From the NCBI RefSeq assembly GCF_006542355.1, contig NZ_CP038141.1:963001-1027000 (forward strand): 64,000 bases of DNA, read 5' to 3'. The DNA is from Swingsia samuiensis (GTDB lineage: Bacteria > Pseudomonadota > Alphaproteobacteria > Acetobacterales > Acetobacteraceae). The number at the start of each line of letters is the position of its first letter. Position 1 is the stretch's first letter. The position numbers and the translations under genes were made by a program. The notes beneath the pieces were generated by a model. It saw only the letters and a list, made by a program, of their open reading frames with translations, had not been told where the DNA came from and made no database searches. Shown piece after piece: positions 3,828-64,000 of the stretch.

Positions 3828-4528
3828 TGACTTTGCTGTTCCTCTAACACCTTTCCTAATAACGGCGCTAACTCTGATAAATGATTAATTTGAACGAAGC
3901 CTTTTACAGGCCAAAAAGGAGGTAACGCTTCTTCTTTAGAACGAAGAAGAATACAACTCATTCCAGCACGTCTTGCTGCTTCTGCTCCTGTGTCACTGTC
4001 TTCAATAACAACACAGTTTTCTGGCATTACTCCTTCAGCTTGAGATGCGTACAGATACACCTCAGGAGAAGGTTTTGGAGCTCCCATATCATTTGCTGAA
4101 TGTATTCTATTTTCCTCAAAAAACTGCGAAATTCCAGAAATTTTAAACTTCACTTCCATTTCTTTTAATGAAGAATTTGAACCCACACGAAATGGCATTC
4201 GTAAAGACACAATATCAGCAAGCATTTCTGGCGATCCATCAATAGGAACAGCCATTTTTTCCATAACTTGTACAATTTTTTTTCGCAAATTAAGTGCCGA
4301 ATTTTCTGGTAAAGAACGTCCTAAATCATCTTCTAATTCTTTTATGACCTGAGGAATGGCTTTCCCCGCAAAACGACGAAACGCCTCTTCATCTGAAATA
4401 TTCAAGCCTTGAGATCGTGCAAATTCTGCTGTTGCATGATTGGATGGACGTTCACTATCAACTAAAACACCATCACAATCAAAAATAACAAGCTTTAACT
4501 TACCGTTAGCATCAAGAGCTGTTGTCAT
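3824..4528 (-). CDS. HAD-IA family hydrolase (phosphatase / phosphoglucomutase-like)
   Basis: A 234-residue HAD-superfamily protein. Motif I is FDCDGVLVDSE with nucleophile Asp17 and Asp19, motif II is in VGSNSS, motif III Lys is in GAPKPSPEVY and motif IV is VIEDSDTGAEAA. The helical cap after motif I places it in subclass IA, together with phosphoglycolate phosphatase, beta-phosphoglucomutase and sugar-phosphate phosphatases; the substrate cannot be told. It sits between hemE and hemJ with 4-nt ATGA overlaps on both sides. That suggests co-regulated expression rather than a proven heme function; a house-cleaning phosphatase role is equally likely. Confidence 0.85.
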   Translation of the reverse strand: MTTALDANGKLKLVIFDCDGVLVDSERPSNHATAEFARSQGLNISDEEAFRRFAGKAIPQVIKELEDDLGRSLPENSALNLRKKIVQVMEKMAVPIDGSPEMLADIVSLRMPFRVGSNSSLKEMEVKFKISGISQFFEENRIHSANDMGAPKPSPEVYLYASQAEGVMPENCVVIEDSDTGAEAARRAGMSCILLRSKEEALPPFWPVKGFVQINHLSELAPLLGKVLEEQQSQ

Positions 4529-5589
4529 AAACCACGCACCGTTTTTACAAGTTCTGCAACATTTTCAGGGGGTGTATGCTGCATAACACCATGACCTAAG
4601 TTAAAAACATGAGGTTTTCCACGCAGTTTATCTCGTATGGATAAAGCTTCTTTGCGAAGATTTTCTCCCCCTGAAAACAAAATCATAGGATCCAGATTAC
4701 CCTGAAGGGTGACATTAGGGACTAATTCAGAAACTTTGGCAGGATCAGCAACTGTATCCAACGCTAATGTTTTTACACCAGTCTTTTCAACATATTCCTT
4801 AACCATTACCCCTCCAAGACGAGGGAAACCAATGATTGGAATTAAAGGATAACGCTTCTGAATATGAGCAACAATTTGTCGTGTAGGTTCAATAACATAC
4901 TTCCTAAAAGCTGAAGGTGGCAAAATTCCAGCCCAAGAATCAAATAACATAACAGTTTCTGCACCTGCTTCGATCTGACCACAAAGCATTTCTGCTGTAC
5001 CAATCGTTAATTTTTCTATTAATTTATCAAAAAGAACAGGTTCTGTTTGCATCATTTTGCGAGTAACCGCAAAATCTTTTGAACCACCTCCTTCAACCAT
5101 ATAACACGAAACCGTAAATGGGCTTCCTGCAAAACCTAATAAAGTTGTCATTTGAGGAAGTGATTTTCTTAAACGTGACAACGTTTCCCGGACAGGTGCG
5201 GTAATGTCTGGAACACGCGAAAGGCTAAGTTTTTCAAGATCTGAATAAGATTTTATTGCGTTTAAAACGGGTCCACGCCCTTCAATAAATTCTAAAGATT
5301 GGCCCATAGCCCAAGGCAAAATCAAAATATCTGAAAATAAAATAGCCCCATCCATCGCGTAGCGACGAATAGGCTGTAACGTTAATTCTTCAGCCATATC
5401 AGGCGTCATACAACGTGTTAAAAAGTCTGCCTTTTCACGCATTGCTCGAAATTCAGGAAGATAACGCCCAGCTTGACGCATAAGCCATATAGGTGGCGGC
5501 CAAACTGCTTCCCCATTTAAAGCTTTCAAAAGTGGTTTTTGTGATGGAGCTAAAGAGCTTTGTTCAGAATTCATACGACCATTAACCAT
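4525..5589 (-). CDS. hemE: uroporphyrinogen decarboxylase
   Basis: HemE removes four acetate carboxyls from uroporphyrinogen III to give coproporphyrinogen III in cytosolic heme synthesis. The 354-residue product has the diagnostic PPIWLMRQAGRYLPEFR (substrate-binding Arg residues), FSDILILPWAMG, GFAGSPFTV and the C-terminal FNLGHGVMQHTPPENV. Two starts are possible, ATG 5589 and an internal ATG at 5574; I keep the longer. It is the first gene of the hemE-HAD-hemJ operon. Its 5' end faces the 334-bp region proposed as oriC, an arrangement (hemE next to the origin) known from Caulobacter and Rickettsia. Confidence 0.95.
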   Translation of the reverse strand: MVNGRMNSEQSSLAPSQKPLLKALNGEAVWPPPIWLMRQAGRYLPEFRAMREKADFLTRCMTPDMAEELTLQPIRRYAMDGAILFSDILILPWAMGQSLEFIEGRGPVLNAIKSYSDLEKLSLSRVPDITAPVRETLSRLRKSLPQMTTLLGFAGSPFTVSCYMVEGGGSKDFAVTRKMMQTEPVLFDKLIEKLTIGTAEMLCGQIEAGAETVMLFDSWAGILPPSAFRKYVIEPTRQIVAHIQKRYPLIPIIGFPRLGGVMVKEYVEKTGVKTLALDTVADPAKVSELVPNVTLQGNLDPMILFSGGENLRKEALSIRDKLRGKPHVFNLGHGVMQHTPPENVAELVKTVRGL

Positions 5590-5923
5590 AAATAAAAAAA
5601 GAAAGAAATTCTGAAGTGTTATATGATCCTTGTGGATATCGGGGTACCCGGCTTTCTAAAAATGTACCCCAACTTATTCACACTGTGTACAACTTTATAG
5701 CTTAATGTTTTCTAAGGCTCTAGAAATTTGTCCCGAATTACCCACAGAAGCTCTGTGTACAACCCACAAAAATTAGAAGCGTACCAAATAATCCACGGTA
5801 CTCGGTACTGTTTTTTCTCTCCTTAGTACTATCCCCATGTACCCCAGTACTGACACAATCATTCTACCTTTTTATTGCTGAATTTTTTATATCTGATTCT
5901 TCATAACTTCTGGATTCGTTAAA
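5590..5923. other. oriC: putative chromosomal replication origin (oriC) between hemE and maf
   Basis: This 334-bp stretch has no gene. It carries DnaA-box-like 9-mers relative to TTATCCACA: ATATCCACA on the minus strand (5631-5639), TTATTCACA (5674-5682) and TTACCCACA (5738-5746), each with one mismatch. Weaker ones with two mismatches are TGTGTACAA at 5684-5692 and 5754-5762, and TAATCCACG at 5789-5797. An A-rich flank (5588-5612) and a T-rich flank (5868-5892) could serve as unwinding regions. Ten GTAC tetramers lie within 5644-5850. Placement between hemE and maf, with parAB, rsmG, mnmG, mnmE, rho and parS sites nearby, matches alphaproteobacterial origins. Promoters of both flanking genes must also lie here. 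Confidence 0.75.
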
Positions 5924-6535
5924 ATGACTGCTACGAATATTTCTTTATATCTAGCAAGTGGCTCTCAGATTCGGCGTGCTTTGCTCGAAGAGAGCGGTTT
6001 ATCTTTTTACACGAAGCCTGTTGATCTTGATGAAGAAGCCGTGAAAGAAAAATGTATGGCAGCAGGTTTTTCATTAGCAGAGACAGCTTTAGAGCTTGCT
6101 CGCAGAAAAGCTTTATTAGCTGCTCATTATTCTCCAGCAGGATCTTATATTATAGGAGCTGATCAAATCTTAGATTTAGACGGTGAGATTTTTTCAAAAC
6201 CACGCAATATGAAAGAAGCGCGTGACCATTTAATCAAATTAAGAGGAAAAACACATTTTTTGCATACAGCAGTGGTTTTATATCAGGGGAAGAAAAAAAT
6301 TTGGGAACATATAGAAAAACCAAAGTTGAAAATGAGAAGGTTCACAGATAATTTTTTAGATACTTATCTTGATGTGGAAAAAGAAAAAATTCTTTCTTCT
6401 GTAGGAGCCTATCGACTTGAAGGTCCAGGGATACAGCTCTTTTCCTCAATAGAAGGGCATTATGATTCTATACTCGGTCTTCCTAGGATGGGGCTTTTTG
6501 AAGTTTTAAGAAAAGAAAAAATCTTAATATCATAA
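5924..6535 (+). CDS. maf: Maf family nucleotide pyrophosphatase
   Basis: Maf/YhdE/YceF proteins hydrolyse non-canonical or modified nucleoside triphosphates to monophosphates and can delay septation. The 203-residue product begins with the family motif LASGSQIRRALLEESGL (S-x-S/Q-x-R-R), has LARRKAL, the GADQILDLDGEIFSKP segment with the catalytic Asp, LRGKTHFLHTAV, and a C-terminal SSVGAYRLEGPG. It starts at ATG 5924 at the edge of the proposed origin and is followed by a tRNA gene. In related genomes a maf-aroE-coaE block is common here; aroE and coaE are absent. Confidence 0.9.
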   Translation: MTATNISLYLASGSQIRRALLEESGLSFYTKPVDLDEEAVKEKCMAAGFSLAETALELARRKALLAAHYSPAGSYIIGADQILDLDGEIFSKPRNMKEARDHLIKLRGKTHFLHTAVVLYQGKKKIWEHIEKPKLKMRRFTDNFLDTYLDVEKEKILSSVGAYRLEGPGIQLFSSIEGHYDSILGLPRMGLFEVLRKEKILIS

Positions 6536-6605: not shown

Positions 6606-6681
6606 GGGGCCATAGCTCAGTTGGTAGAGCGCTTGAATGGCATTCAAGAGGTCGTCGGTTCGATCCCGATTGGCTCCACCA
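6606..6681 (+). tRNA. tRNA-Ala (GGC)
   Basis: A full cloverleaf can be drawn. The acceptor stem GGGGCCA pairs with TGGCTCC (6671-6677), the D arm contains AGCTCAGTTGGTAGAGC, the anticodon arm CTTGAATGGCATTCAAG exposes GGC, and the T arm contains GGTTCGATCC. The 3' ACCA is encoded. Anticodon GGC reads GCC/GCU alanine codons. Confidence 0.95.
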
Positions 6682-60600: not shown

Positions 60601-61161
60601 TTAAATGCTATTGCGTTTGACAGCATCAGAAATAGCTGTGTCATCTTTATGACCGATAAGACGTTCAACAAGATTTTTAGCTGTCTCGGACGCAATTTCA
60701 GGCAGCTCTGCGAGAGCTTTTTCGCGAGATTGATTGATGGTTAACTCAGCATTCTTGATTTCAGCTTCAAGGCGCTTATTCGCTTCCGCCGTATAGGCTT
60801 CAGCACTTTGACGAGCTTCATTTTGAATGCGCTCTATATTTGCTTTCGCTTGAGCGGAAGCTTCATATTGAGTTTTAAAGAGCTCAGCACTTGCACGATC
60901 TGCTTCGTCTTTTGCATGACGCGCAATATTAAGATCATTCTCAATGCGTGAGCGCCGGTTGGCGATTACATTTTCGATTTTTGGAAGAGCCGAACGGCTG
61001 AGGATAATGTAAAAACCGGCAAAAATGACGCCCCCCCAAACGACTTGGCCGATAACAAGAGGGTCATGAAAGTTCAATTGAGGCATGCCCGCAGCCACAG
61101 CTTGGCCCGGCACGGCCGCCAAAGGAACGGCGAACTGGAAAAAACGTGGCATGCGGCGCAT
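60601..61161 (-). CDS. atpG: ATP synthase F0 subunit b'
   Basis: A 186-residue b' subunit: an N-terminal signal-like stretch (FFQFAVPLAAVPGQAVAAGM), a membrane helix in VWGGVIFAGFYIILS and a coiled coil (RIENDLNIARHAKDEADRAS). Alphaproteobacteria use a b/b' heterodimer stalk. It lies 8 bp downstream of atpE and 11 bp upstream of atpF. The symbol atpG is used in these bacteria for b', not for the gamma subunit. Confidence 0.92.
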   Translation of the reverse strand: MRRMPRFFQFAVPLAAVPGQAVAAGMPQLNFHDPLVIGQVVWGGVIFAGFYIILSRSALPKIENVIANRRSRIENDLNIARHAKDEADRASAELFKTQYEASAQAKANIERIQNEARQSAEAYTAEANKRLEAEIKNAELTINQSREKALAELPEIASETAKNLVERLIGHKDDTAISDAVKRNSI

Positions 61162-61169
61162 GAATGACC

Positions 61170-61394
61170 TCAGGAGAACAAAATTAGGAAAGCGATAAGA
61201 AGGGCAAAAAGAGCAATCGCTTCAGTAAGAGCAAAGCCAAGCATACCAAGGCCAAACACGTGTGGGCGAGCAGCTGGATTACGAGCGATTGACCCTACAA
61301 GAGTAGAGAAAATGTTACCCAGACCGATACCTACGCCAGCGAGTGCGATAACAGCAATGCCAGCGCCAATTTCACGAGCAGCTTGAACGTCCAT
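61170..61394 (-). CDS. atpE: ATP synthase F0 subunit c
   Basis: A 74-residue proteolipid of two helices with the Gly-rich loop-ring motif [11 protein letters not shown] and the proton-carrying Glu58 in [15 protein letters not shown]. The polar loop [13 protein letters not shown] contacts the gamma/epsilon stalk. The gene lies between atpB (55 bp upstream) and atpG. Length is typical of alphaproteobacterial c subunits. Confidence 0.95.
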
Positions 61395-61449
61395 TAATCA
61401 GGTTCCTTAGAAGAGGTCGAAACAGTTAAAGAGTTAGACTTGACGTCGC

Positions 61450-62199
61450 TCAGTGAGCGATCGCCTCGCGGAGATAGATGCAGGTGAGGATAGCAAAAAC
61501 GTATGCTTGAAGAGCACCCACCAGCAGCTCAAGAGCCGTCAACGCAACATTGATCGCAATTGGAGCAACAGCCAGAACATGGCCGATAAATCCAAAACTT
61601 GCGAGCATAATTGTGAAGCCGGCAAACACCTCTAACAGCACGTGACCGGCGACCATATTGGCAAATAAGCGGATCGACAAGCTGACAGGGCGAGAAAGGA
61701 AAGAAAGAATCTCGATAGGAACAAGCAGAGGAGCCAACCAGACTGGTGCACCTGCTGGCATGAAATGCTTAAAAAAGCCGAGACCTTGGAAGCGAAGAGA
61801 CGCAAGTATCGAGATTACGAATACCGTAAGAGCCAAAGCAAGAGTAACAGCGATATGGCTGGTAAAAGTAAACGAAAATGGCAATAAGCCGAGATAGTTA
61901 CCTGCGAGAATAAAAAAGAAAAGGGCAAATATGAACGGGAAGAAAGTGGCCCCTTTTTCGCCCATGGTGTCAATTGCAAGCTTGTGCACTGAATCATAAC
62001 AGATTTCAGCCGCGGCTTGTAAACGACCTGGAACAACTGCACCTGGACGCATCCCAATGAACAGGAATGCGAGAACAAGGGTTACAGCAATTAACATAAA
62101 AAGAGGGGATTGAGAGAAGCGTAGGGCTTCCCCTAACGATCCTAGAACAGGGTGGAGCTCGAATTGCCCGAGCGCATCAATCGTTGATCCGGCTGCCAC
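61450..62199 (-). CDS. atpB: ATP synthase F0 subunit a
   Basis: A 249-residue membrane protein with five to six helices. The essential Arg is in SLSIRLFANMVAGHVLLE, and the C-terminal LELLVGALQAYVFAILTCIYL is typical. It forms the two proton half-channels against the c ring. The ATG is at 62199, overlapping atpI by 23 nt, so the two are coupled. The operon promoter candidate lies before atpI. Confidence 0.96.
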   Translation of the reverse strand: MAAGSTIDALGQFELHPVLGSLGEALRFSQSPLFMLIAVTLVLAFLFIGMRPGAVVPGRLQAAAEICYDSVHKLAIDTMGEKGATFFPFIFALFFFILAGNYLGLLPFSFTFTSHIAVTLALALTVFVISILASLRFQGLGFFKHFMPAGAPVWLAPLLVPIEILSFLSRPVSLSIRLFANMVAGHVLLEVFAGFTIMLASFGFIGHVLAVAPIAINVALTALELLVGALQAYVFAILTCIYLREAIAH

Positions 62200-62542
62200 G
62201 CTGGCTTCTCCCGTCTTCTTTTGGCGCAGACATCATGCCTGGCCCATTCACAACTCGCCAGACATTTAACATGCCGGCACTACAACCCAGTAGGGCAAAG
62301 ATAATCAGAAATAAAGCTCGATAACCTAGCCAACGGTCTAAGAAGTATCCAATAAGAACACCGACCGCCAAACCGGCAATAAGCTCAGTCCCGACACGGA
62401 GTGCAATTCCAAACGAAGATGTTGTCGTTCCATCATCGGATGATTCCGCGGAGGACTTTTTCAAGCGAGGATTTAATTTATGATCGGCAGCCTGAAGGCG
62501 CTTGTCAAAATTATGTCCATCACCAGAACTGTTTTGTTCCAC
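62177..62542 (-). CDS. atpI: ATP synthase assembly protein AtpI
   Basis: A small protein of about 121 residues: polar N-terminus (SSGDGHNFDKRLQAADHKLN), then two helices with ELIAGLAVGVLIGYFLDRW and ALFLIIFALLGCSAGMLNVW. AtpI helps assemble the c ring. GTG 62542 is used because the in-frame TTG at 62587 has poor upstream spacing. It begins the F0 operon and overlaps atpB by 23 nt. Confidence 0.87.
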   Translation of the reverse strand: MEQNSSGDGHNFDKRLQAADHKLNPRLKKSSAESSDDGTTTSSFGIALRVGTELIAGLAVGVLIGYFLDRWLGYRALFLIIFALLGCSAGMLNVWRVVNGPGMMSAPKEDGRSQRGSRIND

Positions 62543-62621
62543 GCGATTGCAATCCTTAACCCTGCGCAATCCTTCTCCAAAGAGCAAACTATGGATAAGA
62601 ATTAATTTACAACGCAGGCGC

Positions 62622-62650
62622 TAGCTAGCGGGACGCATGCTTACTGTCAA
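62622..62650 (-). promoter_or_regulatory. candidate promoter of the F0 ATP synthase operon
   Basis: On the minus strand TTGACA (62645-62650) is followed after 17 nt by TAGCTA (62622-62627). The -35 is perfect, the -10 poor. A 12-bp palindrome CGCTAGCTAGCG (62619-62630) overlaps the -10. Confidence 0.4.
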
Positions 62651-62692
62651 TCTTTCTCTCGCTTTAATATAAAAATCGACCATGAAAAATTG

Positions 62693-64000
62693 TCAGCTTA
62701 CCAGTTTCAGACGGCTATTTCGGTGAGGAGGCTTTGGAGCACCGTCAAAAGGCAGCATAGGAGATTGGTCGGTTAAATATTTTTCTTGCTGAGGTGCATC
62801 CGGCATGTGCACGCCAAGATAAGCTTCAGATAAAGTTCGGAAAGCATAATCGACAATAGAAGAAGCATATGCAGATTTAGGATCTCCTTCCACCGTGCCA
62901 GCTGGACCAAACCGGGTGTAAGCGAATCGTTCAACAAAAGCTTCTAGTGGTGCGCCGAATTGCAGACCAATACTGACAGCATGACCGAGGCAGTCCATTA
63001 AACCTTTTGCCATAGGGCTTTCTTTGGGAGGGGTAATGCTAATTTCTCCCAAGGTTCCATCTTCGAACTCACTCGTACGCATAAATAAACTATGGCCGCC
63101 AACGGATGTTTTTTGCGTAAATCCACTCTGTCGGAGCGGGAGAGGGCGCCTAATGCCACGTGCAAGTTTGGCTTTTTGATCGACCAAGTCTGGCTCAGGT
63201 AATTCTGGCATAAAGTCCACATAACCAGAGAGGGCTTGCTGCATGTCATGATGGGCATGTGGGTTGGTGGGGGGGAGTGGGTTTTCCCCCGAAATAGCCA
63301 TAGCTAAAGCAGTTTCAACCGTAAGCCCTTTATGGGATAAGCGCGCAAGAGTCGACGCTCGGAGATGCCCGTTTTCCTGTAGTGGAGAGAAAATGGGGGC
63401 TAACCCGCACGCTTCTACCCCTAAGATTGCGTCGATCGGGCCTGAAGAGGAAAATCCAGTTTCAATGATGGCGAGGTTCTTGTCAGGGAAAGCTTGGTTC
63501 GTGGCTTGTGTTATCTTTTCCAAGTCAGGAATATCTGAAGTGGGAATTTTAACAGCAGGTAGCCGCGTCCCTGCGCGAGCAATACTTGTCGCAACAGCAG
63601 AAACAGCGCGAGCGACCTGACGGCCTGCGTTACTATCGTAGTCCAATCCCATATTGGCAAGGCATGCATCGAGGTCTGAGAGCAGGATTAGCCCTGCTGT
63701 TTCACAGGCAGGGACAGTTGGGACATCAAATAAAGGAAGCTCTCCACTACGTTCTGCACGAGTTGCAGAATGTAAACGCCGCAGAGCGCTGCATGCAAGT
63801 TTGATGCACGCGATATAATGTTCGGAAGCAAAACATCCATCCTGAACAAAACTGGAGAGTTTAACCACAAACCCTGGAGTTTCATCAGGGCGGTTTTGCC
63901 AGAGAGCAATATTAGGAGCAATTTGTCTCATCAATAAGAGATAAGACAAGCTTCTCCCTAAATTGATAGGGGCTGCTTCACCTTCGCCTTCGCCTTCACT
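62693..64000 (-). CDS. TSCPD-domain protein, ribonucleotide-reductase-C-terminus-like, N-terminus beyond window
   Basis: The frame stays open to the window edge, so the N-terminus is missing; about 436 residues are visible. The C-terminal third carries a TSCPD domain (GGHSLFMRTSEFEDGTLGEI, AVSIGLQFGAPLEAFVERF, YTRFGPAGTVEGDP) as found at the end of B12-dependent ribonucleotide reductases. The part before it is unlike the catalytic barrel, and no active-site NxCxE is seen. So it is either a stand-alone TSCPD protein or the end of a longer reductase. Near the edge is an acidic Gly-Glu repeat. The Cys pair that closes many NrdJ tails is absent. Confidence 0.72.
   Translation of the reverse strand, partial: SEGEGEGEAAPINLGRSLSYLLLMRQIAPNIALWQNRPDETPGFVVKLSSFVQDGCFASEHYIACIKLACSALRRLHSATRAERSGELPLFDVPTVPACETAGLILLSDLDACLANMGLDYDSNAGRQVARAVSAVATSIARAGTRLPAVKIPTSDIPDLEKITQATNQAFPDKNLAIIETGFSSSGPIDAILGVEACGLAPIFSPLQENGHLRASTLARLSHKGLTVETALAMAISGENPLPPTNPHAHHDMQQALSGYVDFMPELPEPDLVDQKAKLARGIRRPLPLRQSGFTQKTSVGGHSLFMRTSEFEDGTLGEISITPPKESPMAKGLMDCLGHAVSIGLQFGAPLEAFVERFAYTRFGPAGTVEGDPKSAYASSIVDYAFRTLSEAYLGVHMPDAPQQEKYLTDQSPMLPFDGAPKPPHRNSRLKLVS

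Follow-up and report, generated by a model that had tools for sequence, protein, structure and literature searches.

The 64-kb stretch of DNA analysed here (the window) contains a 334-bp intergenic gap at 5590..5923, flanked by the open reading frames of HemE (4525-5589, minus strand) and Maf (5924-6535, plus strand). Near 6 kb of the window, GC skew switched sign from negative to positive, and cumulative G-C over the whole 64 kb reached its minimum at 5910. The hemE-maf region is the chromosome replication origin. The origin of Caulobacter (Cori) is likewise located next to hemE. The genome measures 2.19 Mb and its closest named HemE relatives are those of Gluconobacter (about 80%). At the other end of the window, AT skew rose to 0.26 in the interval 61001-63000, well above the rest.

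Ten GTAC tetramers are packed into 207 bp of the gap (5644..5850), at positions 5644, 5664, 5687, 5757, 5781, 5798, 5805, 5826, 5839 and 5847, where 1.2 would be expected. These positions and this count are exactly those given in the initial annotation, and its estimate of about one expected occurrence was borne out by 5000 dinucleotide shuffles of the gap (mean 1.2, sd 1.0, maximum 6, none at 10). Across the window as a whole GTAC is scarcer than expected (76 vs 104.6 in shuffles of the whole window), and the next-richest 207-bp stretch holds only 3. We scanned the whole genome for the pattern GTAC-N0-30-GTAC-N0-30-GTAC and obtained 15 matches, 6 in the hemE-maf gap and 9 scattered. No cluster of comparable density was found elsewhere in the 2.19 Mb by this three-GTAC scan. 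Equal clusters elsewhere, or a background density in orthologous hemE-maf regions, had been named beforehand as findings that would count against a dedicated array; the former were not seen, and in orthologous regions the array stands far above background. Over 29 origins, GTAC was the most over-represented tetramer among those with more than 5 expected occurrences (308 vs 52.5 expected from dinucleotides).

The individual sites share only the 4-bp core. The cores of four are invariant, being present in all 38 origins that were aligned: GTAC 5644 in the first site, GGGGTACCC (5641..5649), whose flanks are kept in more than 75%; GTAC 5664 in ATGTACCCC (5662..5670); GTAC 5687 in TGTGTACAA (5684..5692, minus strand, on which it reads TTGTACACA); and GTAC 5757 in a second TGTGTACAA (5754..5762, minus strand). 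As TGTGTACAA resembles a DnaA box, two of the four invariant GTACs of the window fall inside DnaA-box-like sequence. Five others were found in 23 to 34 of the 38 origins, namely the two of the tandem pair CGGTACTCGGTACT at 5796..5809 (GTAC 5798 in 34, GTAC 5805 in 32) and the three of the stretch 5826..5850 (GTAC 5826 in 29, GTAC 5839, inside another ATGTACCCC, in 32, and GTAC 5847 in 23). GTAC 5781 (5781..5784) is the least conserved column, present in 10. The wider contexts described earlier are all there, with GGGGTACM at 5641, 5663 and 5838, CGGTACT in tandem, AGTACTR twice and TGTGTACAA at 5684 and 5754.

We also checked the origin for other known elements. The canonical DnaA box TTATCCACA has no perfect copy in the window's origin and three copies with one mismatch: ATATCCACA (5631..5639, minus strand, gap position 42), TTATTCACA (5674..5682, plus strand, gap position 85) and TTACCCACA (5738..5746, plus strand, gap position 149). 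GANTC occurs 3 times in this origin, against 10 for GTAC, and 0-7 times per 480 bp in the origins compared. An RNA element was discarded as the identity of the array, as Rfam at E up to 1 gave no match within it; a tRNA at 6606-6678 and two sub-threshold matches all lie outside.

All 26 genomes of the genus carry 10 to 17 GTACs in the 600 bp upstream of hemE. In 450 bp, named isolates of Acetobacter, Asaia, Neokomagataea and Gluconobacter carry 12 to 16 (12 in each of two Asaia isolates), and the spacing, whose conservation the initial annotation had proposed to check, is near-fixed in these relatives. Over the 38 aligned origins, the GTAC columns were better conserved than the rest of the alignment (0.88 vs 0.64). 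The flanks of the core are nearly free, save that a C before and a G after are avoided (7% each). Of 378 GTACs in the alignment, 63 stand at columns without a GTAC in the window's origin, as if their number counts as well as their place. The GTAC array is conserved and integral to the chromosome origin in acetic acid bacteria.

Three metagenomic or uncultured records differed. Two metagenome records titled Asaia bogorensis (L064 and L080) have 0 and 2 GTACs, but HemE identity is as low as 57 and 53% and their upstream region is unlike that of the Asaia isolates, so they are probably misnamed. An uncultured acetobacterial relative (L045) has no GTAC in the 600 bp beside hemE and no DnaA box in 480 bp, and its skew is negative throughout 7 kb. 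Its origin therefore seems to lie elsewhere and the record was set aside.

A stand-alone methyltransferase of family PF01555 (276 aa) is encoded outside the window, at G000:C1:1767538-1768365, and is predicted to be an m4C enzyme of the RsaI type. It carries a TSPPY motif, whilst the CcrM-like protein has DPPY; SPPY is the m4C-type form of the catalytic motif. A PF01555 search gave two matches of steady score in all 26 genus genomes, one CcrM-like (218-228 bits) and a second at 135-146 bits. In the three genomes read at this locus, the second gene follows directly after a putative mltA with a four-base overlap, in a shared chromosomal neighbourhood, the neighbours (mltA among them) being named from their translations rather than by family search. 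No restriction gene was recognised among the adjoining open reading frames of these three genomes. A Dam-type enzyme (PF02086) is absent from this genome and present in 5 of the 26, and SeqA gave no match in any of the 26, although the E. coli control matched. Comparison with solved structures returned only general relatives of the methyltransferase such as CcrM.

Homologues of the enzyme were found in 11 phage records, four of which were opened. In Syn19 and ACG-2014j, which represent two cyanophage genera, the homologue lies directly after a gene annotated as R.RsaI endonuclease, a name taken from the phage records themselves. In Syn2, which is close to Syn19, a hypothetical gene stands where R.RsaI would be; for ACG-2014f none is listed. 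Identity to the acetobacterial enzyme over about 260 aa is 40-43% for those of Syn19 and ACG-2014j, which also carry an SPPY motif, PDLC03295 is the best PADLOC profile for both the G000 and Syn19 enzymes, and the central region, where the target-recognition part is expected, is well conserved between phage and acetobacterial enzymes. M.RsaI of Rhodobacter blasticus is described as methylating GTAC as m4C (PMC6256690), and archaeal orphan enzymes producing m4C at GTAC are also known, HG10 and HG18 being presented as persistent orphans (PMC10609329). With homologue identities of 40-46% and the phage annotation underlying the GTAC specificity, we predict that the methyltransferase is of the RsaI type, specific for GTAC and m4C-forming. 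The annotated RsaI-type restriction-modification pair of Synechococcus phages (L280:1974-3274, L282:1496-2774) consists of overlapping genes, and its methylase is annotated as an adenine methylase although the motif is m4C-like. Two Paracoccus homologues emerged from a plasmid search, and no restriction gene is listed next to either.

Next, the distribution of enzyme and array across the family was compared. An orthologue of the methyltransferase was found in 73 of 160 family genomes (enzyme-positive). hemE was found in 155 of the 160 and its upstream region was taken for 100. Apart from G000 there are 72 enzyme-positive genomes, of which these regions represent 66; L036 and L037 stand for G003 and G019, and the enzyme-positive G129, G134, G066 and G162 stand outside the comparison. 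The enzyme-negative set comprises 34 of the 87 genomes that have no orthologue; these came more or less from the head of the hemE list and are not a random sample, and G107 (a weak 82-bit match) was counted as negative. With an array defined as 5 or more GTACs, a threshold set after the counts were seen, 38/67 enzyme-positive and 0/34 enzyme-negative genomes have one (101 genomes), the largest enzyme-negative count being 4. Any GTAC within 300 bp of hemE was present in 67/67 enzyme-positive genomes, four of them via the relocated arrays described below, vs 13/34 enzyme-negative genomes, which retain one to three. The 29 enzyme-positive genomes without an array of at least 5 all lie outside the array clade and carry one to four GTACs, indicating that the enzyme alone does not require an array.

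A midpoint-rooted tree was built from partial HemE and Maf, with 29 of its 98 inner branches drawn open. In it the array clade comprises 38 genomes on a branch with SH-aLRT 94. The array is present in all 35 enzyme-positive members (at hemE in 31, relocated in 4) and missing from all three enzyme-negative members (G054, G140 and G090). The tree places these in two losses: G054 and G140 share a branch, and G090 groups separately with the enzyme- and array-bearing G094 (SH-aLRT 97). No origin-type array was found in the three assemblies, whose 3, 10 and 2 three-GTAC matches (G054, G140 and G090, respectively) are all away from the origin. Six of the ten in G140 belong to a GTACT tandem repeat at C1:536876-536914. 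One GGGGTACC is retained in G054, and at apparently the same place G140 shows GGGGTTTC. Independent-pair tests all pointed in the expected direction but were not significant (median p 0.25-0.5), the pairs being too few. The in-clade losses amount to three genomes, and some of the other negatives are fragmented assemblies from which the gene may be missing. G068 was rejected as a close enzyme-negative relative, as it falls outside the clade on the tree; it keeps one GGGGTACCC.

In the four enzyme-positive clade genomes with a relocated array, the hemE-maf gap has no array and the same array string is found about 20 to 26 kb from hemE. It lies at C28:887196-887403 in G142 and C22:56628-56843 in G181 (both about 24-25 kb from hemE), and at C21:59534-59699 in G057 and C12:42196-42390 in G125 (about 20-26 kb). 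Skew was checked over 60 kb of G142 and 40 kb of G181, and in both genomes its minimum was at the array and not at hemE. The array travels with the origin and not with the hemE-maf genes, as seen where skew was checked. The origins of G142 and G181 are about 24-25 kb from hemE-maf, unlike the hemE-linked origin of the window.

Outside the clade, a GGGTAC/GTACCC element was present within 150 bp of hemE in 29/32 enzyme-positive and 11/31 enzyme-negative genomes. GTACs averaged 1.97 per 300 bp in the former and 0.65 in the latter, uncorrected for kinship. Between enzyme-positive and enzyme-negative deeper relatives, nominal p was 9e-6 for GTAC, 0.009 for CATG and 0.019 for TGCA, again uncorrected for kinship. 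The array may have grown in the acetous clade from a single GGGTAC/GTACCC site. As the single element can persist without the enzyme, a strict dependence is disfavoured and a binding protein may be involved.

The DnaA boxes and DnaA itself also differed between array-bearing and array-losing genomes. Perfect TTATCCACA boxes number 14, two and one in the origins of the enzyme-negative clade members G090, G054 and G140, respectively, and boxes within one mismatch number 5 in G054 and 9 in G140. By contrast, only one of 33 array origins has a perfect TTATCCACA, a single copy, and boxes within one mismatch never exceed 3 per origin. In G090 (L183 / L290; 2.0 Mb) the 14 perfect boxes lie in 480 bp beside hemE; its tree sister G094 has no perfect TTATCCACA and 8 GTACs. 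Among 24 DnaA proteins compared, domain IV has diverged in G090, G140 and G054 (L319-L321), and the last two have lost one residue ahead of the DHTTV motif. Domain IV of most array genomes matches that of array-less deeper relatives (G166, G091 and G061), with some changes in G026 and G158.

The initial annotation had read the locus as an array of binding sites for an initiator or regulator of replication. The origin and the conserved dense array both stand, but methylation sites are favoured over plain initiator-binding sites, because only a 4-bp palindrome is invariant while its flanks vary, and because a stand-alone methyltransferase of the RsaI type co-occurs. A protein that reads the GTAC sites may still exist. 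We consider it somewhat probable that the array is the target of this methyltransferase and that GTAC methylation controls the origin, in a manner analogous to Dam/GATC/SeqA but separately evolved. The enzyme would methylate the GTAC sites of the origin, probably as N4-methylcytosine, and one round of replication would leave the array hemimethylated. This state could be read by DnaA or by another, putative protein, and would set when DnaA reloads on the weak boxes between and over the GTAC sites, such that each origin fires once per cycle. A search of open-licence papers gave nothing on GTAC methylation, or on GTAC at origins, in acetic acid bacteria.

Several other explanations were weighed against control by methylation. 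The position of the array between two divergent genes might suggest that it is the regulatory region of hemE and maf. This reading was dropped as scarcely credible, since the array is parted from both genes in G142, G057, G125 and G181 and, over the stretches checked in G142 and G181, lies where GC skew has its minimum. The enzyme might instead be a relic, or the immune half, of an RsaI restriction system and unrelated to the origin array, as its homologues adjoin an RsaI gene in two cyanophage genera. We regard this as very improbable. In all three genomes read at this locus the gene has a common chromosomal location, a match of the same score occurs in all 26 genus genomes, and the RsaI nuclease profile matched by the Syn19 RsaI (PDLC03550) hit none of the 26, though no control matched it either; a relic would also leave the joint loss of enzyme and array unexplained.

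Two further alternatives place a protein directly on the sites. The array could consist mainly of divergent DnaA boxes (TTGTACACA and its kin) for a DnaA of shifted specificity. All 33 array origins contain one to three exact copies of TTGTACACA/TGTGTACAA and those of G054, G140 and G090 none, canonical boxes are nearly absent from array origins, and a G at position 3 is described as accepted by actinomycete boxes (PMC4285127). However, the other eight GTACs of the window's array lie outside TGTGTACAA, and domain IV, including DHTTV, is much alike in most array genomes and array-less deeper relatives. The most changed DnaA belongs to the three array-losing genomes, although the array genomes G026 and G158 show some changes. 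An altered DnaA specificity in the array clade is thus disfavoured, and we judge this explanation improbable. Alternatively, the GTACs could be direct sites of a putative origin-binding protein that recognises the palindrome, with the methyltransferase merely co-occurring or fine-tuning. The near-fixed spacing fits such a protein, as does the element kept beside hemE by 11 of the 31 enzyme-negative deeper relatives, where one site may act without the enzyme. Against this, 4 bp common to the sites offers little for recognition, and loss of the array coincides with loss of the enzyme within the clade. We consider direct binding rather unlikely.

Methylation of an array of origin sites is known in detail as a control for Dam and SeqA, in a small bacterial group. 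If the methylation reading is true, the acetic acid bacteria have a second such system, which arose independently and uses a different site, a different enzyme family and probably a different methylated base, and this kind of replication timing evolves repeatedly. The chances are about even that an N4-methylcytosine clock at origin GTACs evolved apart from Dam/SeqA, and that lineages losing the enzyme shed the array and changed both their DnaA boxes and the DNA-binding domain of DnaA. The three close relatives without the enzyme, which also lost the array, are natural experiments, and the reading can be tested directly in tractable industrial strains, for example Gluconobacter oxydans.

Of the known systems, Dam/GATC/SeqA of E. 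coli shares with this origin a 4-bp palindrome that is over-represented in oriC and overlaps weak DnaA sites, and a stand-alone methyltransferase, as far as its description in PMC4285127 and PMC13076061 extends. It differs in that the site here is GTAC, the enzyme is a PF01555 protein with SPPY, and the hosts are alphaproteobacteria. This genome has no D12-type enzyme and SeqA was found in none of the 26 genus genomes, indicating that it is not a member of the Dam/SeqA system. Sequestration is described as apparently exclusive to a few Dam-bearing proteobacteria (PMC4285127). M.RsaI and the archaeal HG10 and HG18 share the GTAC specificity (predicted here) and the m4C-type motif, and HG10 and HG18 are likewise orphans as portrayed in PMC10609329, but their descriptions mention no origin role, and the acetobacterial gene goes with an array at the origin; the likeness is drawn from those descriptions. 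With the CcrM/GANTC and CtrA system of Caulobacter Cori, the genus shares a CcrM-like enzyme in all 26 genomes, whilst the dense origin site is GTAC and GANTC is sparse. An oriC rich in DnaA boxes would carry several canonical TTATCCACA, of which the window's origin has no perfect copy.
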